NCBI GenBank assembly: GCA_929200485.1
Contig: CAKMZU010000036.1
Location: 1-12,823, forward strand
Direction: 5' to 3'
Origin: an uncultured Gammaproteobacteria bacterium
GTDB lineage: Bacteria > Pseudomonadota > Gammaproteobacteria > Pseudomonadales > DT-91
DNA length: 12,823 nucleotides
The translations under genes were made by a program, and so were the position numbers. Numbering within the stretch: the stretch's first letter is position 1; the number at the start of each line of letters is the position of its first letter. Shown here piece by piece: positions 2 through 12,372 of this stretch. Below the pieces are notes generated by a model. It worked only from the letters and a program-made list of their open reading frames with translations, did not search any database and was not told where the DNA came from.

Positions 2-1648
2 GTGCCTGGCTCCGACAAAGTATATTTGCGCCAGATTGATTTGCAAACGCATCAGACCGTTGCCCAGATTGTTTTAAAAGCAGGGGTGGACTATGACATT
101 GATCCATTTCAGGGGCGTATCATCTTAACTCAACCGTTATCCAGCCGATCCTTGTTAAATAACCAACCTTTGATTAATAACCGTTTAGGCGGTGAGGTCT
201 ATAACTATCTGGTTGTGGATTATGAGTATGTTCCTAGAAACACAAGAGACCGGCTTGAAAATATGACCTATGGTGGTCGCATGAAAGGATGGATTACCAA
301 GCATTTTGGATTAGGTGCGACCTATGTTAAAGAAGAAAAAGACAGTCAGGATTATGAATTAAAAGGCGGTGATGTCACCATTCGGTTTACTGAGGGCAGC
401 TATATTAAAGCAGAATATGCCAAGTCCGATGGTGTTGAGAGCGACAGTAATTTTGTATCCACAGACGGCGGTTTAACCTTTGATCGGCGTGATGGCGTTA
501 AAGACAAGCGTGATGGCAATATGGTTTTGGTCAATTCCGTTATCAATCTTTATGATTTGATGCCGGGTGTTATTGGTGCTGTGGGTAATGATTTTGGGCT
601 GTGGTACAAAGAGAAAGATTCAGGCTTCAGTTATGCCAGTCAATTTGATTCGCTTGAGCAAAAAAATTACGGTGGTCGATTGCGCTTACAATTTGCTGAT
701 CGAGTGAATTTTGTCACAAGACATCAGGAGACCGACGAGAAAGATGCAGGGGGTGTGCAGGAAACCGACACGAGAGAAACTGAAGTTGAGCTCGGTTGGC
801 TGATCACGGATCATTTTAAAGTCGCTATTGCCGGGGAGAAAATTAAAGAATTGGATCGCCAAAAAGCAATGAGTGATGCCAACCTTGCAGGTCTCCGATT
901 CGATTATATTTATAATTCTGCCAATAACTTTTATGTCAAAGGCCAGAAAACCGTTGATAGCTCAAAAAACTATCAAGACAATGACAGTGTGACGGTTGGA
1001 TTGCAAACGCGACTGCTCCGCAATCTCAGCCTGGCTGGAGATTACACCTCCGGTGATCGGGGTGAAACCACACAGCTGACTTTAGGTTTCGATCGCACCA
1101 ATACACACAACACCTATGTGACCTGGTTGACTAATGATTATGAAGATAAAAACAATCTGGTGTTTGGCCAAAAAGGGCAGCTAACGGATAATCTCAGCGC
1201 GTTTCAGGAAAACCAGTTTGTAGCAGAAAACAATGGCAAGGGGCGTATAGATTCGTTTGGCTTTAATTATAAAGTCAATGATGTGTTACAAAGTGGCTTG
1301 TCTTTTCAGCAGGGTAAAATCGATAATAAATCCATGGTGAATAACCTGCCGGTTGAAGAAACGGTCAAGAGAACCGCAGGCTCAATGTATTGGGTATTTG
1401 ATAATGATAAGGTGTTTGTTACCAATAAATTTGAAGTTCGATACGACAGAGGCAAGGAGGATACTGAGCAGTATGTGACAATCAACCGATACATGCAGCA
1501 GTTAACGCTTGCGCATACCTTGTACGGTAAATTCAATTACACCATTACCAACAACAAAGAAACCGATAAAACCATTCAGCGTTTTATTGAAGGGTCAGCT
1601 GGCATTGCTTACCGTCCGCATGGAAAAAAACCGATGAAACCTATGTGA
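2..1648 (+). CDS. Large outer-membrane beta-barrel protein, 5'-truncated by the window edge, broken by a frame change at its 3' end
   Basis: This frame is open from the left edge, so the true start lies outside the window and the GTG at position 2 is not a supported start. Residues 1-80 form a small beta-rich module with a 'GVDYDIDPFQGRIIL' segment. Such modules occur just before the barrel in long surface proteins. From about residue 88 to the end there are many amphipathic strands alternating aromatic and polar residues, joined by Asp/Lys/Gly-rich turns, which is typical of an outer-membrane barrel. There is no C-terminal aromatic beta-signal in this frame: it ends in a Pro/Lys/Met-rich stub right after a run of seven A at 1624-1630. 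The -1 frame continues the barrel (see 1630-1935). The next gene, a peptidoglycan-binding lipoprotein, overlaps that continuation, which suggests a barrel plus wall-anchor pair. The precise family is not recognised; the barrel assignment is fairly sure. Confidence 0.75.
   Translation: MPGSDKVYLRQIDLQTHQTVAQIVLKAGVDYDIDPFQGRIILTQPLSSRSLLNNQPLINNRLGGEVYNYLVVDYEYVPRNTRDRLENMTYGGRMKGWITKHFGLGATYVKEEKDSQDYELKGGDVTIRFTEGSYIKAEYAKSDGVESDSNFVSTDGGLTFDRRDGVKDKRDGNMVLVNSVINLYDLMPGVIGAVGNDFGLWYKEKDSGFSYASQFDSLEQKNYGGRLRLQFADRVNFVTRHQETDEKDAGGVQETDTRETEVELGWLITDHFKVAIAGEKIKELDRQKAMSDANLAGLRFDYIYNSANNFYVKGQKTVDSSKNYQDNDSVTVGLQTRLLRNLSLAGDYTSGDRGETTQLTLGFDRTNTHNTYVTWLTNDYEDKNNLVFGQKGQLTDNLSAFQENQFVAENNGKGRIDSFGFNYKVNDVLQSGLSFQQGKIDNKSMVNNLPVEETVKRTAGSMYWVFDNDKVFVTNKFEVRYDRGKEDTEQYVTINRYMQQLTLAHTLYGKFNYTITNNKETDKTIQRFIEGSAGIAYRPHGKKPMKPM
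1624..1630 (+). other. A7 homopolymer in slippery phase at the frame junction
   Basis: Seven A lie exactly as A|AAA|AAA relative to the upstream zero frame (the last base of a GGA codon, then two AAA Lys codons). This is the X_XXY_YYZ arrangement at which -1 ribosomal slippage or transcriptional slippage can occur. Zero-frame translation stops at 1646-1648, six codons after the run. I see no strong Shine-Dalgarno-like stimulator upstream and no convincing hairpin downstream, so an indel or sequencing error is at least as likely as recoding. Confidence 0.5.
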
Positions 1649-1935
1649 GAGCCGATAAGACACGTTTGCCACTAGAAAATGATGTTTATCTTTTAGCGGT
1701 AAGTTCATCCTATCACTTGATGAATAGCTGGGATTTAATGGCAGAATACCATTGGAAAACCGATCGGAATTCGGATGATGTGCTTCAAGGCGCATTGGTT
1801 TCTGTTAATAAACTGATAGGCAAGAACTTGAAATTGGGTATTGGCTATAACTTCTCTGACTTTAACGATGACCTTGTGAAAAAAGATGATTATGAAGCAC
1901 ATGGCTTCTTTATCAACATGCTGGGAACGTTCTAA
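1630..1935 (+). CDS. C-terminal end of the same beta-barrel protein, in the -1 frame
   Basis: Reading on from the A-run in the -1 frame gives about 101 residues (K-T-D-E-T-Y-V-R-A-D-K onward) with the same alternating strand pattern. The last strand is 'AHGFFINMLGTF' and ends in Phe, the classic beta-signal recognised by the BAM machinery. An isolated reading would have to begin at GTG 1645, which has no ribosome binding site and would encode only the last few strands, so an independent gene is unlikely. The segment is best read as the lost 3' end of the upstream frame. It ends in TAA sharing its last base with the ATG of the OmpA-like lipoprotein (TAATG), so translational coupling would need ribosomes in this frame. 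Causes could be a sequencing error in the homopolymer, a real pseudogenising indel, or programmed slippage. Confidence 0.7.
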   Translation, partial: TDETYVRADKTRLPLENDVYLLAVSSSYHLMNSWDLMAEYHWKTDRNSDDVLQGALVSVNKLIGKNLKLGIGYNFSDFNDDLVKKDDYEAHGFFINMLGTF

Positions 1936-2432
1936 TGAAGATACCAACGTATGGCTATCCTATCGCTTTGTTGTTATTGGTGGTTTTGATGGGGCTAATT
2001 GGTTGTTCTACCCAGACCTATGTCAGTGACGAAAATATCAACAAATATGCGCCTGTGATGGTAGAGAAGTTTGTTATTGATGAAGGCTCTGCAAAACCCG
2101 ACTTAACGGTGTATTTTGGGTTTGATCAATCCATGTTAACCGGAGCAGAAAAGCAAAAACTTGATGCGTTTATCCAACGCGTTAAAAACACCAAAGGTGA
2201 AATCATTATTTCAGGTTATACGGATTTAACGGGGAGTAGCGAATATAATAAAGGGTTGTCTGAGCGCCGAGCGGCATCAATTACCAGCTATTTACAATCT
2301 AAAGATCAAAACGTATCGAATCATCAATATAGCCAAAAAGCGCTGGGTAAAACCCATCCGCTTGTCAGAGCCATGGGATCTGATGCCAATGCACAAAATC
2401 GCCGAGGTTATGTTTTCTTTAAACCTTCCTAG
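1935..2432 (+). CDS. OmpA-family peptidoglycan-binding lipoprotein (Pal-like)
   Basis: This 165-residue protein starts with a lipoprotein signal: a hydrophobic stretch at residues 10-20 followed by the lipobox L-I-G-C with the lipidated Cys at 24. Residues 58-163 match the OmpA C-terminal domain: the strand 'LTVYFGFDQSMLT', then 'ISGYTDLTGSSEYNKGLSERRAASI' around residues 92-116, then a closing 'NRRGYVFF'. Asp97 and Arg112, 15 apart, correspond to the pair that grips the diaminopimelate side chain of peptidoglycan in this family. The protein should be anchored in a membrane, probably the outer one, and bind the wall non-covalently. Its ATG overlaps the stop of the barrel reading frame (TAATG), so it is probably translated from the same mRNA and may tether that barrel to the wall. 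The length is near that of Pal (about 170), but no tol genes are next to it, so it is not called pal. Confidence 0.9.
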   Translation: MKIPTYGYPIALLLLVVLMGLIGCSTQTYVSDENINKYAPVMVEKFVIDEGSAKPDLTVYFGFDQSMLTGAEKQKLDAFIQRVKNTKGEIIISGYTDLTGSSEYNKGLSERRAASITSYLQSKDQNVSNHQYSQKALGKTHPLVRAMGSDANAQNRRGYVFFKPS

Positions 2433-2479
2433 TGCGGCTGCCAGTCAATTCCTTCAAATTAGATAACTTACGTAAAAAG

Positions 2480-2507
2480 CATCCTTCGACGGGCTCAGGA
2501 TGAACGG
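2480..2507 (+). repeat. REP-like repeat, copy 1 (forward)
   Basis: A 28-bp extragenic element beginning CATCCTTCGACGGG and ending in ATGAACGG, with complementary CATCCT/AGGATG ends. It shares 22-23 of 28 positions with 4398-4425 and is matched in reverse orientation by 2532-2555. It resembles a short palindromic repeat type scattered in many proteobacterial genomes. It lies between two convergent genes. Confidence 0.7.
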
Positions 2508-3258: not shown

Positions 3259-3663
3259 ATGCAGTCACAGGATTTAAGCCTGCACTTTTCAAATTTGACC
3301 TTTGAAGGTTATGGGTTCGATTGCCAGATCATTCAAGGGGAGGTGGATGTCCTTCAAGTGGTTGTTGAAGGGTTTGAAGAGTTACCGGTCTATCTTTCGA
3401 TTACCGATAACCAGATTCTCTGTATTAGTTATCTGTGGAATGAATCGGAAGTCAATCAGGAAAAACGCGCTGAGATGCTTGATGTGATGCTAGAGATGAA
3501 TATTCCTATGCCGCTATCGTCATTTTCACGCATTCAAGATCAGTACGTCATATTTGGCGCGTTATCAACAAACTCAAGTTTTGATGATATTGCTCATGAG
3601 ATCATCACGCTTTGTGAAAACGCCGTAGAAGCCATCGGCGCAATGACTGACTACTTAAATTAA
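3259..3663 (+). CDS. yjfI: YjfI-like protein (DUF2170)
   Basis: This 134-residue, acidic, soluble protein has no signal peptide. It matches the DUF2170 family typified by E. coli YjfI (133 residues) in length, in composition and in position directly before a YjfJ-like PspA homologue. The N-terminal half is beta-rich ('VVVEGFEELPVYLSITDNQILCISYLW', about residues 34-60), followed by a helix with 'RAEMLDVMLEMNIPMPLSSF' (73-92), a strand 'QYVIFGALS' and a long C-terminal helix. The biochemical role is unknown; the constant pairing with YjfJ suggests a cytoplasmic partner or adaptor of that PspA-type protein. AGGGAG eight bases before the ATG supports this start. It is the first gene of the operon and is followed after 32 bp by yjfJ. 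Confidence 0.85.
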   Translation: MQSQDLSLHFSNLTFEGYGFDCQIIQGEVDVLQVVVEGFEELPVYLSITDNQILCISYLWNESEVNQEKRAEMLDVMLEMNIPMPLSSFSRIQDQYVIFGALSTNSSFDDIAHEIITLCENAVEAIGAMTDYLN

Positions 3664-3695
3664 CGGAAGTTTTTGTAAGGATTAGGGGATTAGCT

Positions 3696-4388
3696 ATGAA
3701 AGTATTATCTAAATTAATGACAGCGATTCGAGGCGGCGCCAGAGAAGCAGGTGAATCCATTGTGGATGCCAATGCCGTTCGTATTTTTGAGCAGGAAATC
3801 GTTGATTCAAAAAATCATATTAAAAAAGCCAAAGACAGTTTGACTTCTGTTATGGCGGAAAAGATGCAGGCAGCAAGAAAAGTCGATGCGATCCAAAATG
3901 ATATTGCTGCCAATGAAGGGTATGCGGAAAAAGCCTTAGCCAAAGGCGATGAAGCGCTGGCTTTGGAAGTGGCTCAAAAAATTGCACAGTTAGAGTCGGA
4001 ATTAGCTGATCAGCAAGGTGTTCAGCAAACTTGTGCGCTTCATGTTGAAAAATTAAAAGGGCAGATTCAAGCGGCAGAGCGTCAAATTGTTGAAAATGAA
4101 CGTCAGCTCAATATGATCAAAACAACTGAAAGTGTGCATAAAGCCACGGCAGCGATTAGCGATAATTTTTCTCAATCGGGCTCGAAGCTGGTTAACGCTA
4201 AAGAATCGTTAGAGCGTATTAAAAAACGTCAGGAAATGCGTGAAGATAAATTAAAAGCGGCAGAAGAGTTAAACAGCGAAAACTTCGACAAGTCGTTAAA
4301 TGACAAGTTGAAAGATGCTGGAATCATGGATAGCGGTTCATCAAGTGCCAATGCTGTGCTTGAACGTTTGAAAAACAAGCAATCTTAA
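3696..4388 (+). CDS. yjfJ: YjfJ-like PspA/IM30 family protein
   Basis: This 230-residue protein is almost wholly alpha-helical coiled coil, with heptad-rich Glu/Lys/Gln/Ala segments from about 20 to 205. It begins with an amphipathic stretch (MKVLSKLMTAIRGGAREAGE) like the membrane-binding N-terminus of PspA and Vipp1. The 'VDANAVRIFEQEIVDSK' segment is the family's hallmark hairpin start. Length and neighbours fit E. coli YjfJ (232 residues). PspA/IM30 proteins form large ESCRT-III-like assemblies that bind and stabilise damaged inner membrane. Residues 184-230 are Ser/Asn/Lys-rich and probably flexible. PspF, PspB and PspC are not nearby, so control is unlikely to follow the classical Psp circuit. 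A purine-rich stretch (AAGGATTAGGGGATTAG) precedes the ATG. Confidence 0.92.
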   Translation: MKVLSKLMTAIRGGAREAGESIVDANAVRIFEQEIVDSKNHIKKAKDSLTSVMAEKMQAARKVDAIQNDIAANEGYAEKALAKGDEALALEVAQKIAQLESELADQQGVQQTCALHVEKLKGQIQAAERQIVENERQLNMIKTTESVHKATAAISDNFSQSGSKLVNAKESLERIKKRQEMREDKLKAAEELNSENFDKSLNDKLKDAGIMDSGSSSANAVLERLKNKQS

Positions 4389-4397
4389 GCTGCGAAA

Positions 4398-4425
4398 CAT
4401 CCTTTGACAAGCTCAGGATGAGCGG
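4398..4425 (+). repeat. REP-like repeat, copy 3
   Basis: A 28-bp element ten bases after the yjfJ-like stop codon, in the same orientation as 2480-2507 and differing mainly at the TTCGACGGG/TTTGACAAG core. Its ends CATCCT/AGGATG are complementary. It lies inside the operon, where such hairpins often protect the upstream message from 3' decay. Confidence 0.7.
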
Positions 4426-4441
4426 AACTTATATCTGCTCA

Positions 4442-4465
4442 GGGCGGGCGAGTTATCGCCCACCC
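4442..4465 (+). terminator. G+C-rich hairpin inside the operon, possible attenuator or processing site
   Basis: GGGCGA (4446-4451) and TCGCCC (4456-4461) form a perfect 6-bp stem with a GTTA loop. After one C-A mismatch it is extended by GGG (4442-4444) and CCC (4463-4465). No T-run follows (GTAAATCTTG), so termination would be partial at best. Together with the REP-like element it fills the 133-bp gap between yjfJ and yjfK, the widest gap in the operon, and may lower expression of the downstream genes relative to yjfI and yjfJ. Confidence 0.45.
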
Positions 4466-4521
4466 GTAAATCTTGAGTCTTGCCAGAGTGTTTCTTAATA
4501 ATTCTTCTTGATGGAACCTAA

Positions 4522-5154
4522 ATGAAAAAATTATTCAAAGCCATGATGGCGTCAATGAAATCTGAGGCACCTCTACGTGACGTAGTTGAGTTAAAAGATT
4601 TGGCGATCAATGATTATGTGGATTTGTCCGATAGCTTTGCATTGCCTTCTGAGTTGCGTGGTAAAACGTTTCAAGTGAATAGTATTGATAGCTATTTCTA
4701 CAGTGATGGTTTGAACACAGAATGGGCCCTCAAAGGGGATACTCAAAAGAAGTTGTATCTGGCTCAGACGGATTTAGGTGGCGAAGATCAGTTAGAATTT
4801 AGTTATCAATTGAAGAAAAAAGAAGTGGATTCTTTATTTGGATGGGATCAGTTAAAAGCCCTTTTTGATAAATCTAATGATACCGAGCTTAGCTGCAAGA
4901 ATATCGATGCGTTTGAAGGTTGGTTGGCAGAGAAATACACAAGGAGCGAATGCGGTGCTAAAGGTACTTATTGCGCTGGCGATTATAGGGGCAAGCCTCG
5001 TCAAAATGGGGATGAGTCGTTTACTTATTTCAGCTTTTTCAATGCGGATGAAACATTAAGTGTAGAAGTCGAGGTTTGGGATGAAGATGAAATCGATGTG
5101 TTTATTTCCATTCTTAGGCCTGAAACTGACATCACCGCCTGTTATGCAGGGTAA
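4522..5154 (+). CDS. yjfK: YjfK-like protein (DUF2491)
   Basis: This 210-residue soluble, acidic protein without a signal peptide matches the DUF2491 family of E. coli YjfK (219 residues) by length and order. It has a small N-terminal helix with paired Lys, then beta-rich sequence containing 'VELKDLAINDYVDLSDSF' (about 22-39) and 'FSYQLKKKEVDSLFGW' (93-108). After these come a Cys-containing stretch with 'GDYRGKPRQNG', where a Gly-Asp-Tyr-Arg turn is conserved as I recall it, and a C-terminal beta hairpin rich in acidic residues ('SVEVEVWDEDEIDVFISI'). No enzymatic motif is visible; a role as scaffold or sensor in the PspA-type module is inference from gene order. GGAA about nine bases upstream supports the ATG. 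Only 15 bp separate it from the next gene. Confidence 0.82.
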   Translation: MKKLFKAMMASMKSEAPLRDVVELKDLAINDYVDLSDSFALPSELRGKTFQVNSIDSYFYSDGLNTEWALKGDTQKKLYLAQTDLGGEDQLEFSYQLKKKEVDSLFGWDQLKALFDKSNDTELSCKNIDAFEGWLAEKYTRSECGAKGTYCAGDYRGKPRQNGDESFTYFSFFNADETLSVEVEVWDEDEIDVFISILRPETDITACYAG

Positions 5155-5169
5155 TCGTAAGTTAATTCG

Positions 5170-5496
5170 ATGAAAAAACTTCCTCAAAAATGGCAATCTG
5201 AACAAAAAGCCATTCGAGCCATCCAATTGGCGTTTGATCTTGATGAAAAAATCCAGTCTGTGATTCGAGAAGAAGCACAAAATACAGGTGTCAGTGCCAG
5301 TGAGCATATTCGAGGCATTCTTGGACTTTCTGTGACAGGCAAGCCTGTTCGGCCAAGGCTTACGGTATCGTTGAAACCTGAAGATTTTGAACAGTTGGCG
5401 CAAAAATATCAGGTGGATGCGTCAAATCGAAAAGAGATCAAAGATTGTGTCTCGCGCGATTTGCAGGACTATGTTAATCTCAAACTGCAAAAATAA
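5170..5496 (+). CDS. Small protein with two ribbon-helix-helix-like units, function unknown
   Basis: This 108-residue basic protein has no signal or membrane segment. It reads as two similar strand-helix-helix units. Residues 15-52 have strand 'AIQLAFDL', a helix through 'IQSVIREEAQNTG' and a short helix 'SASEHIRGILG'. Residues 61-101 have strand 'RLTVSLK', helix 'PEDFEQLAQKYQV' and helix 'NRKEIKDCVSRDLQDYV'. Each resembles a ribbon-helix-helix monomer, so one chain could form the two-monomer fold that normally needs a dimer. It may bind the operon's own promoter palindrome, or use the fold for protein contacts. It has no counterpart in the E. coli yjfIJKLM order that I recall. The start has a poor ribosome site (AAGTTAATTCG) and probably depends on read-through from yjfK. 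Confidence 0.6.
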   Translation: MKKLPQKWQSEQKAIRAIQLAFDLDEKIQSVIREEAQNTGVSASEHIRGILGLSVTGKPVRPRLTVSLKPEDFEQLAQKYQVDASNRKEIKDCVSRDLQDYVNLKLQK

Positions 5497-5539
5497 CGAT
5501 AATAATCTCTTATGACTAATTTCTTATAAATGATCCCTT

Positions 5540-6646
5540 ATGGGCAGAACCTTTTTCTTTCTAAAACGTCTAGGTCGTAATAAAAAAAAGCAATCCTTAG
5601 TCGAGCGATCCCATAAAGCGCGATTAACAAGGCTTTTTGGTTTGTTGTTGGGCCTTATTTGTCTTCATACGCTGCTGATTATGCGGTTTGAAGCGTTACC
5701 TTTATCGGATGCGTTGTGGCTAACCTTAACATCCATGACAACAGTGGGTTACGGCGATTATTCTGCGGCGACTATTCCCGGTCGACTAACAACGGTTGCG
5801 CTGATTTATGTGTTAGGCATTTGGATATTGGCACAGCTCGCTGGTGATTTTTTGGATTATCGCCAGGATCGACGAGAGAAAATGATAAAAGGCTTATGGA
5901 GGTGGCAAACCATGTCTCGGCATATTTTAATTATTAATTCACCAGAAAAAAATTCTGAACGCTATCTTGTGCGTTTAATTGAACAGATTCAACAGACACC
6001 CAGTTTAGAGTCATTGCCTGTCAATATCCTGACCTCTCGTTATCCTGAAGGCTTGCCGACGAGTCTACGAGATAGAGGTGTAAAACATTTTCATCGAGAT
6101 GTGCATACTCAGGTTAACCTCAATGAACTTCACCTTGATTGCGCGGATTATATTCTGGTGTTAGCGCCTGATGAGTATGATGCACGCTCGGATAGTTTAA
6201 CACTGGATATGCTAGATAGGCTCAAACGAGAGAAAACATCGGCATTTGTCGTGGCGGAATGTTTGTTGGATGAAAATCGAGATCGCTTTATAAGTTTAGG
6301 TGCCAATGCTGTGATACGTCCGGTGCGTGGTTATCCAGAGCTGATTGTTCGTGCGATGTCAGCGCCGGGCACGGAAAGAATTTTAGAAAATCTGTTTACG
6401 CATCAAGGTGCATCGATGAGGCGGGTGGATATTGACCTGTCGGGCATTCAATGGAAAACACTGGTCAGTTGCCTGATCGAAAAGGGGGTCGGAACAGCGC
6501 TTGGATATATTGATAGTTCTGATCGAGTCATTACTAACCCGGAAGCCCTCGATAAAATACAGGGCAAAGCCTTATTGATGATAGTGAGTGATTCCAAGAC
6601 ATTAACCATCAAACAGGTTAAGAACGCACTAGAGGACGCAAGTTAA
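5540..6646 (+). CDS. Two-helix potassium channel with cytoplasmic RCK-like region
   Basis: This 368-residue protein begins with a basic cytoplasmic N-terminus (1-30), then helix 1 (about 31-48), a pore helix and the K+ selectivity filter T-T-V-G-Y-G-D-Y (67-74), and helix 2 (84-104). This is the Ion_trans_2/Kch-type pore. The cytoplasmic part from 127 starts like an RCK/TrkA-N domain ('RHILIIN') but has N-S-P-E-K-N-S in place of the glycine-rich GxGxxG turn, so it may not bind NAD(H) in the usual way. Residues 290-360 form a second alpha/beta lobe. Tetrameric channels of this kind conduct K+ across the inner membrane under ligand gating. The stop overlaps the next ATG (TAATG), so it is tightly coupled to the DUF350 protein. 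The ATG at 5540 follows an in-frame TGA at 5531-5533; the ribosome site is weak. Confidence 0.92.
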   Translation: MGRTFFFLKRLGRNKKKQSLVERSHKARLTRLFGLLLGLICLHTLLIMRFEALPLSDALWLTLTSMTTVGYGDYSAATIPGRLTTVALIYVLGIWILAQLAGDFLDYRQDRREKMIKGLWRWQTMSRHILIINSPEKNSERYLVRLIEQIQQTPSLESLPVNILTSRYPEGLPTSLRDRGVKHFHRDVHTQVNLNELHLDCADYILVLAPDEYDARSDSLTLDMLDRLKREKTSAFVVAECLLDENRDRFISLGANAVIRPVRGYPELIVRAMSAPGTERILENLFTHQGASMRRVDIDLSGIQWKTLVSCLIEKGVGTALGYIDSSDRVITNPEALDKIQGKALLMIVSDSKTLTIKQVKNALEDAS

Positions 6647-7494
6647 TGGATTTTAAGGAAGTCATTGAAGCGCTTTACAGTACAGGAAGTTTATTACTGC
6701 TGTATTTGGCCATCTTTTTTATTGCCAACTTGTTTTATGCAAGGAAAGCCGGTGCCGATATAAAAAGACAAATTATCGACAATGATAATGCTGCAGCGGC
6801 CATTAGTTTTGCAGGCTTTTTAATAGGGCAGGGGGTTATTTTTATTGGTTCAGTTATGGGGCCTTCTCAGGGATTAATTGCTGATTTACTGGTGGTTCTA
6901 CAATACGGTGCATTGGGCATATTGTTTTTATTTATTTCACACTGGATCAACGATAAATTGATTCTCTCACGATTTTGTAACAAAACCCTGATTCAAAAAG
7001 ATCATAATATTGGCGTAGGGATTGTTCAGGCCGCGTCATTTATTGCGTCAAGTTTGATGATATCGGGTAGCCTTCAAGGTGAAGGTGGCGGAATAGAAAC
7101 AGCGTTAGCATTTTTTGTTCTGGGTCAGTTTTTTCTGGTCATTATGGGTAAGATTTACGACAAAATTACGCCATTCGATTTACAAAAAGAAGTCCTTGAA
7201 AACAATCTCGCAGCGAGTGTTTCCTTTGCCGGCAGCTTAATTGCTTTAGGGGTGATATTGGCCAAAGCAGCCTCAGGTGATTTTATCAGCTGGGAAGATA
7301 ACCTGATAAGCTTTCTAAGCTTTGCTGTCGGGGCGTGTTTGCTGTTGCCGGTTTTCCGATTTTTCTTTGATAAGTGTGTAATCCCGCAAGGAGATTTAAA
7401 TACAGAAATTGCCAGAGATAAAAATCTTGGAGCAGGCATATTGGAATTAGCCACGACAGTGATTTTTACCACTGTGCTCTGTTTTTTATTTTAG
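6646..7494 (+). CDS. yjfL: Tandem DUF350 membrane protein (double YjfL)
   Basis: This 282-residue integral membrane protein has about eight helices. E. coli YjfL and most DUF350 proteins have about 130 residues and four helices; here two copies are fused. The repeat is direct and visible: S-F-A-G at 54-57 and 193-196, and D-x-N-[IL]-G-x-G-I at 119-126 and 258-265, both with an offset of 139 residues. The Asn residues at 46-48 and 186-187 before each S-F-A-G unit are also shared. DUF350 is found beside PspA-like proteins, K+ channels and polyamine enzymes; its molecular function is not established. The ATG shares a base with the stop of the channel gene. The symbol is by family; this is a duplicated form. 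Confidence 0.88.
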   Translation: MDFKEVIEALYSTGSLLLLYLAIFFIANLFYARKAGADIKRQIIDNDNAAAAISFAGFLIGQGVIFIGSVMGPSQGLIADLLVVLQYGALGILFLFISHWINDKLILSRFCNKTLIQKDHNIGVGIVQAASFIASSLMISGSLQGEGGGIETALAFFVLGQFFLVIMGKIYDKITPFDLQKEVLENNLAASVSFAGSLIALGVILAKAASGDFISWEDNLISFLSFAVGACLLLPVFRFFFDKCVIPQGDLNTEIARDKNLGAGILELATTVIFTTVLCFLF

Positions 7495-7527
7495 GTTTTT
7501 TTATTTTAAGGCGATTTTAAGGATTTA

Positions 7528-8274
7528 ATGATGCCATACGCGTTTATTTTTGGTATTTATTGCGCTATCGGTTTGTTGTTTGCAGCGATTATGTCAGGCG
7601 ATTCGTCGGTTCGTGACATGCGATTGATTAATTCAGATAGTGGTCGGTTCGGCCCGATTCATATTGATAAGAAAAATACGATTAAAAATATCAATATCTA
7701 TAAAGATGTCTCCTTGGGAAGATGGACCTCTATTGATGTGGATGTTTTGGATGCACAAGGCACAAAGCTTTTCAGCTTTGGTGATCAACTATGGCATGAA
7801 AGTGGTTATGATTCCGACGGTGCCTGGGAAGAATCAAATCGTGAAATTGAGATTCCAATCACTTTTAGGTCACCGGGTAAGTATTATTTGGATATTCGAA
7901 CTGATACCAATGAAACGAGCCAATTGAGTATTTATGTCTCAGAAGCAACGCAACGTGGAAGCTCGATCCCTTTTGTGCTGCTGTCTATTTTAAGTTTAAT
8001 CGCCGCTTTGGTTTGTTATTATCTGTACCAACATTCGAAAAGACCAGTGAGTAAAGGGAATTTTATTACGGTGATTGCTGTACTTGGCGTCCTTTTTTTC
8101 GTGGCATTTTTCTATAGCTTTCGAGGCTATGGTTATACGGGTTATTATGGTTACCACAGAGGTCCATCGTTCTACTATTGGGGAGGGCCGAAGATTTATC
8201 ACGAGAGAAGTTACCGACATGGCAGTGTGGGGGGGATTAAACATCGTGGTGGCGGTTTTAGCAGCGGTAAGTAG
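7528..8274 (+). CDS. Membrane-anchored beta-rich protein with Tyr/Gly/His-rich tail, unknown function
   Basis: This 248-residue protein starts with a hydrophobic helix (4-22). A beta-rich region of about 100 residues follows (40-138), containing 'FSFGDQLWHESGYDSDGAWEES' (82-103) and 'SPGKYYLDI', a pattern suggesting a jelly-roll or Ig-like sandwich. Two more helices (146-167 and 179-197) are joined by a basic loop (HSKRPVSKGN), which should be cytoplasmic. That places both the beta domain and the C-terminal tail on the periplasmic side. The last 51 residues hold about 14 Gly, 9 Tyr and 4 His and end in 'HRGGGFSSGK'. I do not recognise a named family. Its place between tandem DUF350 and the aminopropyltransferase, with only 5 bp to the latter, suggests a component of the same membrane complex. 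AAGGA upstream supports the first ATG; the adjacent second ATG is equally possible. Confidence 0.75.
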   Translation: MMPYAFIFGIYCAIGLLFAAIMSGDSSVRDMRLINSDSGRFGPIHIDKKNTIKNINIYKDVSLGRWTSIDVDVLDAQGTKLFSFGDQLWHESGYDSDGAWEESNREIEIPITFRSPGKYYLDIRTDTNETSQLSIYVSEATQRGSSIPFVLLSILSLIAALVCYYLYQHSKRPVSKGNFITVIAVLGVLFFVAFFYSFRGYGYTGYYGYHRGPSFYYWGGPKIYHERSYRHGSVGGIKHRGGGFSSGK

Positions 8275-8279
8275 CGTTA

Positions 8280-9800
8280 ATGAAGCATAAAGAAACCCAT
8301 GTCCTTATCTTTGCGGTATTCATCGCAGGTCTTTGTTCTATTATCTATGAGCTGTTGATTGCAACAGCGTCTTCCTATTTTTTGGGCGATAGTATCAAGC
8401 AATTTTCAATTACCATTGGCAGCTATATGGCGGCCATGGGGATAGGTTCTTATCTATCCCGGTTTGTTGGGGATAAACAGTTACTACTAAATTTTATTCG
8501 CTTTGAGCTGGTGTTAGGGCTGATAGGCGGCCTGAGTGTGCCATTGTTGTATTTGGCATTTGCCTATACCGAGAGCTTTCAGTGGGTATCCATTGGGTTA
8601 ACCGTTGCCATCGGTATACTCATCGGTCTGGAAATACCCTTACTTAGCCGATTGATGGAAAAGCATTATCAGTTAAGTTTTAATATTTCCAATGTACTCT
8701 CAGTTGATTATTTAGGTGCATTAATTGCGACACTGATTTTTCCATTTATTTTATTGCCTGCCTTTGGCACATTTAAAACCGCGTTGTTTTTTGGTTTGGT
8801 AAACATGTCCATTGCTTTTGTGCTGTTGATATTCTTTGCGGATAAGATTGCCATCAGCCATAAGAAAATTATTTGGGGATACTCTCTGGTGGTGACGGCG
8901 TTACTTGGCTGTACTTTTATATTTTCAAGCACACTTCTGCATCACTTCAGTGATAACCTCTATAACGATCGCATTGTGTATGCAGTCGAAACACCGTATC
9001 AAAAAATCGTCATGACCAAACGAAAAGATGATTTACGATTATATTTGAATGGCAATCTACAGTTCTCGTCAACCGATGAGTACCGCTATCATGAGTCGCT
9101 AGTGCATTTGCCGTTGGCGAATGTCAGGGTGCCAAAAAATGTTCTTATGCTCGGTGGTGGTGACGGTTTAGGTGTTCGAGAGGTTTTAAAATATCCCTCG
9201 ATTGAATCCATTACGTTGGTCGATCTAGATCCTGCGATTACACATTTAGCTACCGAAAATCACTTATTATCCAAGCTTAATAAACAGAGTTTAGAAAACA
9301 CCAAGGTGACAGTCATCAATCAAGATGCCTTTACTTTTTTATTGGATAGCACTAAGAAATATCATGCGATTATCATTGATCTACCTGACCCTAATAACGC
9401 AGCGCTTGCAAGACTCTACAGTCAGGAGTTCTATCGATTAATCCGCCAAAACCTGGCGTTTGACGGGGTTTTTGTGACTCAGGCAACCAGCCCATTTTTT
9501 GCGCACAAAGCGTTTTGGACGATTTATTCATCCATTAAATCAGGTGGATTTGCCTATGCTGTGCCATATCATGTGAATGTGCCATCTTTTGGTGATTGGG
9601 GGTTTATCATGGCCTCACAAAGGCCGTTAGATCTTAAGCAGCTTGATTTGATTGATCAAACGCAATTTGTTTCAGATCAAGTGACTGAATCAATGACAGT
9701 GTTTGCTAAAGATAGGGGCTTTGTTGCCATGCCATCAAGCACCATTGATCATCCTTTAGTGTTAAATCATTATCTTAAAGGCTTTAAAGAGTGGGATTAA
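8280..9800 (+). CDS. Polyamine aminopropyltransferase (spermidine synthase-like) with N-terminal membrane domain
   Basis: This 506-residue protein has about seven membrane helices in residues 8-218, then a complete spermidine-synthase-type fold (about 225-500; soluble SpeE is about 290). Visible motifs are D-E-Y-x-Y-H-E (266-272), the nucleotide loop G-G-G-D-G (292-296) followed by R-E, V-D-L-D (314-317), D-A-F (349-351), I-I-D-L-P-D-P (365-371) with the catalytic-type Asp367 and Asp370, Y-S-Q-E-F-Y (380-385) and F-G-D-W-G-F (437-442). Family members move the aminopropyl group of decarboxylated S-adenosylmethionine to a diamine. V-D-L-D replaces the usual V-E-[IL]-D and L-P-D-P replaces the usual S-x-D-P, so substrate choice may differ. 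No S-adenosylmethionine decarboxylase (speD) is in the window. This is the last gene of the cluster. The gene name speE is avoided because the architecture differs. Confidence 0.9.
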   Translation: MKHKETHVLIFAVFIAGLCSIIYELLIATASSYFLGDSIKQFSITIGSYMAAMGIGSYLSRFVGDKQLLLNFIRFELVLGLIGGLSVPLLYLAFAYTESFQWVSIGLTVAIGILIGLEIPLLSRLMEKHYQLSFNISNVLSVDYLGALIATLIFPFILLPAFGTFKTALFFGLVNMSIAFVLLIFFADKIAISHKKIIWGYSLVVTALLGCTFIFSSTLLHHFSDNLYNDRIVYAVETPYQKIVMTKRKDDLRLYLNGNLQFSSTDEYRYHESLVHLPLANVRVPKNVLMLGGGDGLGVREVLKYPSIESITLVDLDPAITHLATENHLLSKLNKQSLENTKVTVINQDAFTFLLDSTKKYHAIIIDLPDPNNAALARLYSQEFYRLIRQNLAFDGVFVTQATSPFFAHKAFWTIYSSIKSGGFAYAVPYHVNVPSFGDWGFIMASQRPLDLKQLDLIDQTQFVSDQVTESMTVFAKDRGFVAMPSSTIDHPLVLNHYLKGFKEWD

Positions 9801-11101: not shown

Positions 11102-12229
11102 TCAAGAATTAGTTGACTGCTTTACTTTAGCATATTGATAACGACAACGACCTGTTTCTTTATCAAAACGTTCTTTAAATCTACTATCAATTTGTGTAAG
11201 GCGCTGCCAGCCTTCTTCTGTTAATACTCTCGGATTAACAATACGACAGCGGAGGTTTTTGAAAGTTATATCCGCCTGGTCGGGACTACTTACCTCGGTT
11301 ACGTTATACCAGGAAAATTTCAACTTATTTACCAGTGCACGCACTTCGGCATCTTTGTTTTCAAAAAACGCACTCCAAACTTCAGCATCGGTTTTGTTAT
11401 ATAGAACATCTTCTATGGTGAACTCACCCAATTCAACTAGACGACTCAGCGCTTTGGCTGTCCAAATATAAAGCATGCGCGCCCATGCAGCAGCAAATAT
11501 TTTACTGTTAAGTTCTATGCTTGCATCTGCTATAAGTCTTGCCGCCTTTTCATTCTTTAGATACCAATGTGCTGTTTTCTTATCAAAAAGCAGCGCATCC
11601 AATACCTCATTTTGTTCGGTTTGGCTCATAACCCCTCGTCGAACTGCACCTTGTAAAATATAATCAATGCGATCAGCACATAAATCAGGCAACTCTCTTT
11701 CAAGCATGGTAAACCCTTTTTTTGCTGGGTTAACGTCACATGCAGATAAACCATACCGACCAAGAATGTCGGAAAGGCCACGTTTTTTCACAAATGGAAT
11801 AAACAACGAATCATGAAAATTTGTATTTCCCGCTGAATTGTCAGAAAAAAGATAATCAGAAACATGACTGAAAACCGTGTGTGAAACATCGTGCAAAAGC
11901 CCGCTGACTTGTTCTTTATAAGAGGCATGAAATCTTCTTAAAAGATACAGCACCCCTAATGAGTGATCATAACGAGAGTAAGGCTCGTTATTTTGATCAG
12001 ATGAATCTACTAGCTGAATAACACCGTATTGGTTGATGTGTTTCAACCTTTGAAGGGACTGACTTTCAAGTAGGTCTTGAAGAAGTTTGTCTTCAGGAAA
12101 AAATAATTTTATTTCCCCGTACCAACTTGGTATCGCAGCATGATATTGACAGTGTGCATCACAAAATGACGATATTACTATGCAAACAATAATAAACCTA
12201 AAAACTAATGCAAAAAAGCAACACTTCAT
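11102..12229 (-). CDS. HD-domain phosphohydrolase with N-terminal export signal
   Basis: Using ATG 12229 (375 residues), chosen because AGG lies eight bases upstream while the in-frame TTG at 12235 is too close to it. Residues 2-22 form a hydrophobic, Cys-rich signal-like segment, with possible cleavage near 'FCDAHC'. The body shows HD-superfamily metal-binding motifs of the SAMHD1/COG1078 type: R-Y-D-H-S (His89), L-L-H-D (His113-Asp114), S-H-T-V-F-S-H (His117, His122) and A-D-R-I-D-Y (Asp186 at the place of SAMHD1 Asp311). These enzymes hydrolyse phosphate esters, often dNTPs. An exported member would be unusual, as the known dNTPases are intracellular. The C-terminal 100 residues are alpha/beta without a clear match. 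It is a single-gene unit flanked by A+T-rich gaps. HD-hydrolase class is firm; substrate and location are not. Confidence 0.82.
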   Translation of the reverse strand: MKCCFFALVFRFIIVCIVISSFCDAHCQYHAAIPSWYGEIKLFFPEDKLLQDLLESQSLQRLKHINQYGVIQLVDSSDQNNEPYSRYDHSLGVLYLLRRFHASYKEQVSGLLHDVSHTVFSHVSDYLFSDNSAGNTNFHDSLFIPFVKKRGLSDILGRYGLSACDVNPAKKGFTMLERELPDLCADRIDYILQGAVRRGVMSQTEQNEVLDALLFDKKTAHWYLKNEKAARLIADASIELNSKIFAAAWARMLYIWTAKALSRLVELGEFTIEDVLYNKTDAEVWSAFFENKDAEVRALVNKLKFSWYNVTEVSSPDQADITFKNLRCRIVNPRVLTEEGWQRLTQIDSRFKERFDKETGRCRYQYAKVKQSTNS

Positions 12230-12372
12230 CTGCAAAGCCTATATGGTAGGTTTCCCTTTAATTTCAATATCTACTTAGATAACAAGCGAAATAATCAAGA
12301 CTTTCATCCCAGATAGTCATCATTTGGCTACGATCAGGATTTATTAATAGGCAAGAGCTGTGCATTTTAATA

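Follow-up and report, generated by a model that had tools for sequence, protein, structure and literature searches.

The DNA stretch analysed here (the window, 12,823 nucleotides on contig CAKMZU010000036.1, our C36) belongs to the draft genome of an uncultured gammaproteobacterium (GCA_929200485.1; 3.66 Mb, 93% complete), labelled G000 in this analysis, in which G denotes genomes and L loci. It carries an operon of eight plus-strand genes that ends with a tailed membrane protein terminating in Gly-Lys (gene 7; GK ending) and a membrane aminopropyltransferase (gene 8; Table 1). A check of open reading frames (ORFs) placed all eight exactly where a preliminary description of this DNA had put them, and profile matches bore out the families it had assigned to genes 1, 2, 5, 6 and 8. 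Successive genes are separated by 32, 133, 15 and 43 bp, a 1-bp overlap, and 33 and 5 bp. The tight packing originally described thus holds for two gaps below 20 bp, whereas "several" overlapping genes was an overstatement, since this 1-bp overlap is the only one.

Table 1. Genes and other features of the operon, in window coordinates (TM, transmembrane; RHH, ribbon-helix-helix; REP, repetitive extragenic palindrome).
Feature	Position	Strand	Evidence
Gene 1, YjfI/DUF2170	3259..3663	+	Pfam DUF2170 1.3e-37
Gene 2, PspA/YjfJ	3696..4388	+	Pfam PspA_IM30 4.6e-39; sole PspA_IM30 match in draft assembly
REP-like repeat in 133-bp gap between genes 2 and 3	4395..4425	+	core GACAAGCTCAGGATGAGCGG; genome-wide core matches
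Gene 3, divergent DUF4178-like protein	4522..5154	+	7/14 aligned members match DUF4178
Gene 4, RHH-like protein, likely regulator	5170..5496	+	45 homologues; RHH_1 0.068
Gene 5, two-TM K+ channel with cytoplasmic MthK-like domain and TVGYGD filter	5540..6646	+	Ion_trans_2 2.3e-10
Gene 6, tandem DUF350, eight predicted TM segments	6646..7494	+	DUF350 8.4e-49; TM scan; tree
Gene 7, TM segment, outer domain, two TM segments and Gly/Tyr/His tail ending ...HRGGGFSSGK; proposed substrate	7528..8274	+	three hydrophobic segments
Terminal Gly-Lys codons of gene 7; proposed recognition and acceptor site	8266..8271	+	ending pattern
Gene 8, membrane aminopropyltransferase (PRK03612 type), six or seven TM segments, catalytic core kept	8280..9800	+	NCBIfam 620.7 bits

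The 620.7-bit score of gene 8 compares with a cut-off of 472 for the PRK03612 polyamine aminopropyltransferase family, and the gene is the sole PF01564 match in the draft genome. It encodes the short (~506-residue) form of this family, and the best Protein Data Bank (PDB) match to its synthase domain is a thermospermine synthase (2.6e-38). Residues Q241, Q261, D266, D295 of the GGGDG motif, D317, D349, D367 and D370 are invariant in 25 aligned synthases; we take these to form the decarboxylated S-adenosylmethionine (SAM, AdoMet) site and the catalytic Asp pair of an aminopropyltransferase. The likely source of the aminopropyl donor is also present. Single AdoMet decarboxylase (AdoMet_dc) and PF01564 matches were found in both G000, where the former lies on another contig (C56), and the same-genus genome G002, where the decarboxylase gene is convergent to gene 8 (locus L028). 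Among five genomes sampled from the genus, gene 8 (at 1e-30) and AdoMet_dc occur in the same two, G000 and G002. In a class-level sample of 369 genomes, gene 8 was detected at 1e-60 in 11, its own included, and AdoMet_dc accompanies it in 10 of these 11 (all but G197), versus 203 of 369 overall.

Recurrence in same-genus and other genomes rules out a strain-specific neighbourhood. Genes 3-8 are kept in the same order in G002, where gene 3 is cut by the contig end. Of the 369 genomes, 27 carry DUF2170, at 30 places, the window's own among them, and profile parsing of all 30 revealed operons with a ~575-residue ("long-type") synthase; ATP-grasp operons with DUF2491, DUF1190 and a single DUF350, six of eight of which also have a K+ channel gene; operons marked by a different conserved pair of genes, which we tentatively take to be the band-7 group of Ravi 2024; and a few places with DUF2170-PspA and only one or two other genes. 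Searching named genomes with an alignment of the channel returned at least 80 loci. The first 36 were parsed with profiles, and the best 16, the gene-5 orthologues, include ten beside DUF2170, PspA and a long-type synthase and two in partial operons, in keeping with the earlier proposal of one conserved module joining PspA, a K+ channel, DUF350 and a polyamine-type enzyme. That proposal had also noted, correctly, that Escherichia coli K-12 carries yjfIJKLMC and that an ATP-grasp gene is missing here (no GSP_synth, PF03738, match in the draft genome). Its suggestion that the channel takes the place of the ATP-grasp and yjfM genes fails, because those six ATP-grasp loci have a channel too (the E. 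coli operon has none); judged by gene content, it is the ATP-grasp and DUF1190 pair that is replaced by an aminopropyltransferase and a GK-tailed protein. Some long-type operons (L050, L053, L054 and L075) have a Peptidase_M50B-like protein at one end (by Pfam in L054, by profile in the others).

The protein that most regularly accompanies the synthase is secreted or a lipoprotein and has a tail with a GK end. In long-type operons this partner is usually a lipoprotein with an invariant Cys, here termed c7, which ends GK in all 20 proteins examined directly and in 117 of 120 homologues among the matches listed (704 found). In 15 aligned c7 proteins the tail is a fast-changing Ser/Arg linker, invariant at no position but the last two. 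In the gene-7 family, 10 of 10 full-length members, the window's included, end GK, and six other listed matches have no tail. Kinship of gene 7 to c7 or to DUF1190 found no support in hhalign comparisons: the probability against c7 was 0.6-0.8, and with tails removed it stayed below 1 against all of the six other GK-tail families. There is no c7 match in G000 or G002.

We quantified this pattern with a fixed filter (same strand, tail composition, hydrophobic stretch) on 66 loci carrying either enzyme. Unadjusted, a GK tail was detected at 29 of 34 loci with synthase and DUF350, and at none of 10 with ATP-grasp and DUF350, nine of which have a GG or GS ending instead. The pattern mostly does not extend to synthases without DUF350 (5/22, some regions being cut by contig ends). 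Fisher tests gave p = 1.2e-6 for GK between the enzymes and p = 3.8e-6 for GK by DUF350 presence, in both cases for loci that share ancestry and are not independent; the number of separate tail families therefore matters more than these values. On a further 74 loci, each 6 kb or longer (1.29 Mb in all; L097-L140 among them were not scanned for the enzymes), the filter returned two GK tails, both of them c7-type proteins of this system (L107, L051), and among other ORFs of at least 150 residues 8 of 745 end GK, three of the eight being tails of this kind. Read by eye, the loci missed by the filter include a contig-edge c7 ending GGK (L062) and a 48-residue ORF ending GGGK (L018), together with L021, L091 and L177, whose endings are given below.

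The ATP-grasp side has its own ending. Of seven DUF1190 proteins, five end GG and two GS; six have a neighbouring ATP-grasp gene, and L041 is cut by a contig end. The protein just upstream ends GG at four Bacillota ATP-grasp loci, and both YjfM and YgiB of E. coli end GG. The endings of these two E. coli proteins, GK ends on one DUF4247 protein each from Bacillota and Streptomyces, and GK in the larger c7 set were among four predictions fixed beforehand and agreed with what was then found. A later search of 47 further genomes, mostly from other phyla, yielded 19 regions, with GK tails in seven of eight that have synthase and DUF350 (L179 being the contig already touched as L107) and in two of 11 without a DUF350 match (L176 cut by a contig end). 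Pfam identifies DUF4247 among these GK tails at L175 (1.9e-10) and L178 (3.1e-12), and leaves L174 unmatched. In a phyletic test of 32 genomes, c7 is present in 14 of 16 where the long-type enzyme was seen and in none of 15 where it was not; the enzyme of G246 is a fragment at a contig end, and G286 has c7 with the enzyme not on the fetched contig. In Streptomyces, all six of L181, L182, L183, L185, L186 and L187 have a nearby Cys/Gly-rich frame ending ...CGGGS or ...CGGGGS; beside a distant synthase branch without a DUF350 match, this ending is possibly a third tail code.

Phylogenetic analysis suggests a mixed origin for the operon. A tree of 53 synthases places the 23 long-type rows on one side of a branch (Shimodaira-Hasegawa-like approximate likelihood ratio, SH-aLRT, 100) and the window outside them, while a tree of 26 tandem DUF350 proteins groups the window and L028 with five that accompany short-type enzymes (SH-aLRT 100). 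Both trees are quick ones made without bootstrap, and they cover the synthase and DUF350 rather than genes 1-5. The five DUF350 proteins that group with the window and L028 include members from Thermodesulfobacteriota, Bacteroidota, Fibrobacterota and Verrucomicrobiota. Genes 1-5 match long-type operons, nearly all gammaproteobacterial (the channel is 44% identical to that of L027). The operon therefore looks chimeric, with genes 1-5 mostly gammaproteobacterial and genes 6-8 from a lineage spread over several phyla, and the 3' part (DUF350, tail protein and enzyme) was probably exchanged as a unit. This apparent exchange replaced c7 by gene 7, a protein of no detectable kinship, and the last two residues are still Gly-Lys.

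Drawing on gene content, operon recurrence, the GK/GG pattern, the kept catalytic residues and the different ancestry of the 3' half, all read from sequence, we infer that gene 8 aminopropylates the terminal lysine of the gene 7 tail to give a tethered, spermidine-like cap within an envelope-stress membrane module, an account that we favour while rating its chances slightly short of even. Gene 8 would take the aminopropyl group of decarboxylated SAM, supplied by the genome's single AdoMet decarboxylase, and transfer it to the amine of the terminal lysine on the flexible tail, whose side chain would become -(CH2)4-NH-(CH2)3-NH2, a protein-fixed spermidine arm. In sister operons, an ATP-grasp ligase of the glutathionylspermidine synthetase family would join spermidine to the terminal glycine, producing nearly the same cap; RefSeq names YjfC and YgiC peptide-spermidine ligases. 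The resemblance between an aminopropylated lysine and a glycine-spermidine cap would account for the enzyme exchange, for the two endings and for a dedicated AdoMet decarboxylase. The capped cationic tail would act together with DUF350 at the membrane, and also with the K+ channel in operons that have one, either as an anchor to acidic lipid or as a tethered blocker, while YjfI and PspA would handle membrane damage and the RHH-like protein would regulate. Should the two-residue ending be what the enzymes recognise, the acceptor used by membrane aminopropyltransferases could be tested directly. Such a scheme would also explain why an AdoMet decarboxylase often lies beside these operons and how two unrelated enzymes can stand in for each other, and it would tie polyamine chemistry to PspA envelope defence and a K+ channel.

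Enzyme orientation is the weakest link of this mechanism. With segments set by hand on the alignment, Lys plus Arg content is higher on the N-terminal side over seven TM segments in 25 of 25 synthases, which places the catalytic domain outside, on the side of the tail; by loop charges the gene 7 tail is also outside, as are the lipoprotein tails. Gene 8 is thus probably outward-facing. Several observations weigh against this placement and against tail aminopropylation as a whole. By net charge, the N-terminal bias over the same hand-set segments holds in 23 of 25, and an automatic TM scan gives seven segments in only 17 of 35 synthases; for gene 8 itself it gives six. If the enzyme does face outward, it must find decarboxylated SAM outside the cytoplasm, by a route that is not known; the membrane half or DUF350 may supply it there. 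The ATP-grasp ligase, for its part, has to work inside. The tail families may be fewer than they look through remote kinship via c7, which is weakly similar to the L022-L024 lipoproteins (hhalign 44, E 2e-4) and to the L084/L184/L091 proteins (hhalign 41, E 3e-4); remaining pairs of GK-tail families score 18 or below. The ending itself varies: by eye, the L019 and L021 tails end HK, L091 ends GKN and L177 has none, and three c7 homologues (P0128, P0131 and P0175, two of them named Thalassotalea) end RRR. Two long-type genomes, G025 and G358, lack c7, and four of the best 16 gene-5 orthologues sit in unrelated contexts. Finally, the modified peptide is a prediction from sequence, and the GK ending might serve just for binding or processing.

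The last point leads to an alternative that we consider unlikely yet worth weighing, in which the enzyme or DUF350 reads the GK tail as a signal for docking, sorting or processing and the true aminopropyl acceptor is a lipid head group or small amine. The enzyme is membrane-embedded, and the penultimate Gly of c7 is as conserved as the Lys, as in a recognition motif; MFS-type fusions, moreover, reportedly do not complement a spermidine synthase mutant (Li 2019). However, a docking signal leaves unexplained both why GG/GS is the ending next to a ligase related to enzymes that act on a terminal glycine and why L019 and L021, by eye, have lost the G but retained the K. The preliminary description had proposed instead that the K+ channel is gated or tuned by free polyamine of the spermidine type, made at the membrane by gene 8. 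Conserved aminopropyltransferase residues agree with this, as do the single synthase and decarboxylase matches in G000 and G002, and in four genomes (G110, G246, G286 and G293) c7 is separated from the remaining genes, with a gene-5 orthologue on one side and DUF350 on the other, which lends substance to a link between the system and the channel. The free product finds no such support: genomes G106, G193, G020 and G025 carry a separate ~300-residue speE-like gene in addition to the membrane synthase, so free spermidine does not need the latter. The channel is also not in all operons, and the GK tail plays no part in such a scheme, which we therefore regard as improbable. Among the 16 genomes with the long-type enzyme, the regions fetched show the channel in only seven, so its gating is unlikely to be the core function of the module. 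Least probable, to our minds, is a loose stress operon whose enzyme supplies polyamine for general membrane protection and whose tail ending is a functionless habit of lineage; gene content does differ between lineages, but the ending is shared by families that look hardly or not at all related when compared without their tails, and the background all but lacks it. Extending tail aminopropylation further, an outside-acting aminopropyltransferase would be a new class of protein modification, a GK-versus-GG code would assign tail to enzyme, and the capped tail would be a covalent ball-and-chain gate or blocker of the neighbouring DUF350/K+ channel assembly, a combination we think rather unlikely.

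The preliminary description had said that surveys noted related associations, and Ravi 2024 (PMC11237479) indeed describes the operon classes, links the third to polyamine genes and, in its section on these operons, names no synthase substrate. Judged by its genes, the operon belongs to the published class of PspA, DUF2170, DUF350 and a membrane spermidine-synthase-like protein, as a variant with a K+ channel added. It resembles the "second major group" (Shewanella, AAN56744-AAN56747), which combines a CesT/Tir (DUF2170)-PspA pair, a 7TM-synthase fusion, an 8TM DUF350, DUF4178 and RHH; the DUF2170-PspA pair, membrane synthase and tandem DUF350 all recur here. Unlike the operon studied here, that group has no K+ channel named in the section read and no GK ending mentioned there, and it pairs a Ctha_1186-type lipoprotein, presumably c7, with a ~575-residue synthase (in the operons fetched) in place of gene 7 and the ~506-residue type. 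Since c7 is absent from G000 and G002 and gene 7 shows no kinship to it, we file the operon as a variant of this group. The "third group", with E. coli yjfIJKLMC and ygiBC, shares DUF2170, PspA, DUF350, a K+ channel in many members, a polyamine-linked enzyme and a tailed lipoprotein, but has an ATP-grasp ligase, DUF2491, a single DUF350 and a DUF1190 tail ending GG/GS rather than GK; E. coli has no channel in its operon, and its ygiBC is a two-gene pair. Here PF03738 has no match in the genome, gene 3 is not DUF2491 and gene 7 shows no DUF1190 kinship. In the actinobacterial and Bacillota DUF4247-DUF350-synthase cluster, a short-type synthase likewise stands beside DUF350 and a lipoprotein, with tails of the form GGGPxxGK; it differs in its DUF4247 tail protein (L175, L178) and in having no K+ channel match in the fetched regions. 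Ravi 2024 treats it as a PspA-less variant, and weak PspA matches lie beside it in L174 and L175.

At the level of chemistry, gene 8 shares its catalytic domain with the spermidine and thermospermine synthases SpeE and ACAULIS and differs from them in a multi-TM N-terminal half and a dedicated tail protein. Attachment of a polyamine to protein is known from hypusine. The modification proposed here would resemble hypusine and the peptide-spermidine ligases YgiC/YjfC in placing a polyamine on a protein or peptide, and would differ from both in direct aminopropyl transfer to a terminal lysine, probably outside the cytoplasm. Passages of PMC12568646 call YgiC/YjfC peptidylpolyamine synthetases, both it and PMC12270671 cite Pederick 2023 on ligases of this type, and a passage of PMC12506659 reports that YgiC lacks the activity of the glutathionylspermidine synthase Gsp. 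Neither a GK tail nor lysine aminopropylation is stated in the titles, abstract openings and passages that made up the literature searched; Li 2019 and Pederick 2023 lie outside that set. DUF350, DUF4247, the tail lipoprotein and the membrane spermidine-synthase-like proteins span several phyla and, to our knowledge, have no established function.

DUF2170 adopts a CesT/Tir-like chaperone fold according to passages of PMC11237479 and PMC10948618, the latter, on the Pseudomonas bac operon, giving a structure. The YjfK/DUF2491 identity implied for gene 3 is rejected (0 of 14 aligned relatives match; hhalign probability 5.9). The window protein alone has no Pfam match, and the best DUF4178 match among the seven matching relatives is 1e-5, one of which (L026) was seen over the cut-off. 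For gene 4, the RHH assignment fares unevenly: the Pfam match is weak, while a few homologues are so named among the matches listed, which are mostly Shewanella and Paraferrimonas proteins. Gene 5 has a weak TrkA_N match besides Ion_trans_2, and its profile aligns with an MthK chain at 6.9e-22 over profile positions 25-362, consistent with the TVGYGD filter and a cytoplasmic RCK-like domain. In L027, the channel gene is directly followed at 9063-9584 by a gene whose product contains two ACT-domain stretches. Sequence comparison turned up no relative of DUF350 in the PDB. A segment of gene 7 is similar to the C-terminal region of a DUF4178 protein found in the short-type clusters L018/L020 (hhalign 96%), and the closest named kin in the protein search were a Cellvibrionales metagenome-assembled genome (genes 4 and 7) and Candidatus Endobugula sertula (gene 7).

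Scans for non-coding signals returned no Rfam match and nothing usable for sigma-70 promoters or terminators, and a sigma-54 promoter as reported for the Pseudomonas bac operon was rejected, the window having no more matches to the pattern than chance predicts (48 found against 58 expected). RNA folding of the stretch that separates genes 2 and 3 is strong (z -6.2). Its REP-like element has a second copy at window positions 2477-2507, and the core has 38 matches in the genome (at most two mismatches) versus 0 for a reversed control. Flanking the module, ORFs at 2-2432 (+), upstream, resemble outer-membrane beta-barrel proteins and an OmpA-like lipoprotein by eye, and 11102-12235 (-) encodes an HD-domain protein with an apparent N-terminal signal or TM segment, also by eye.

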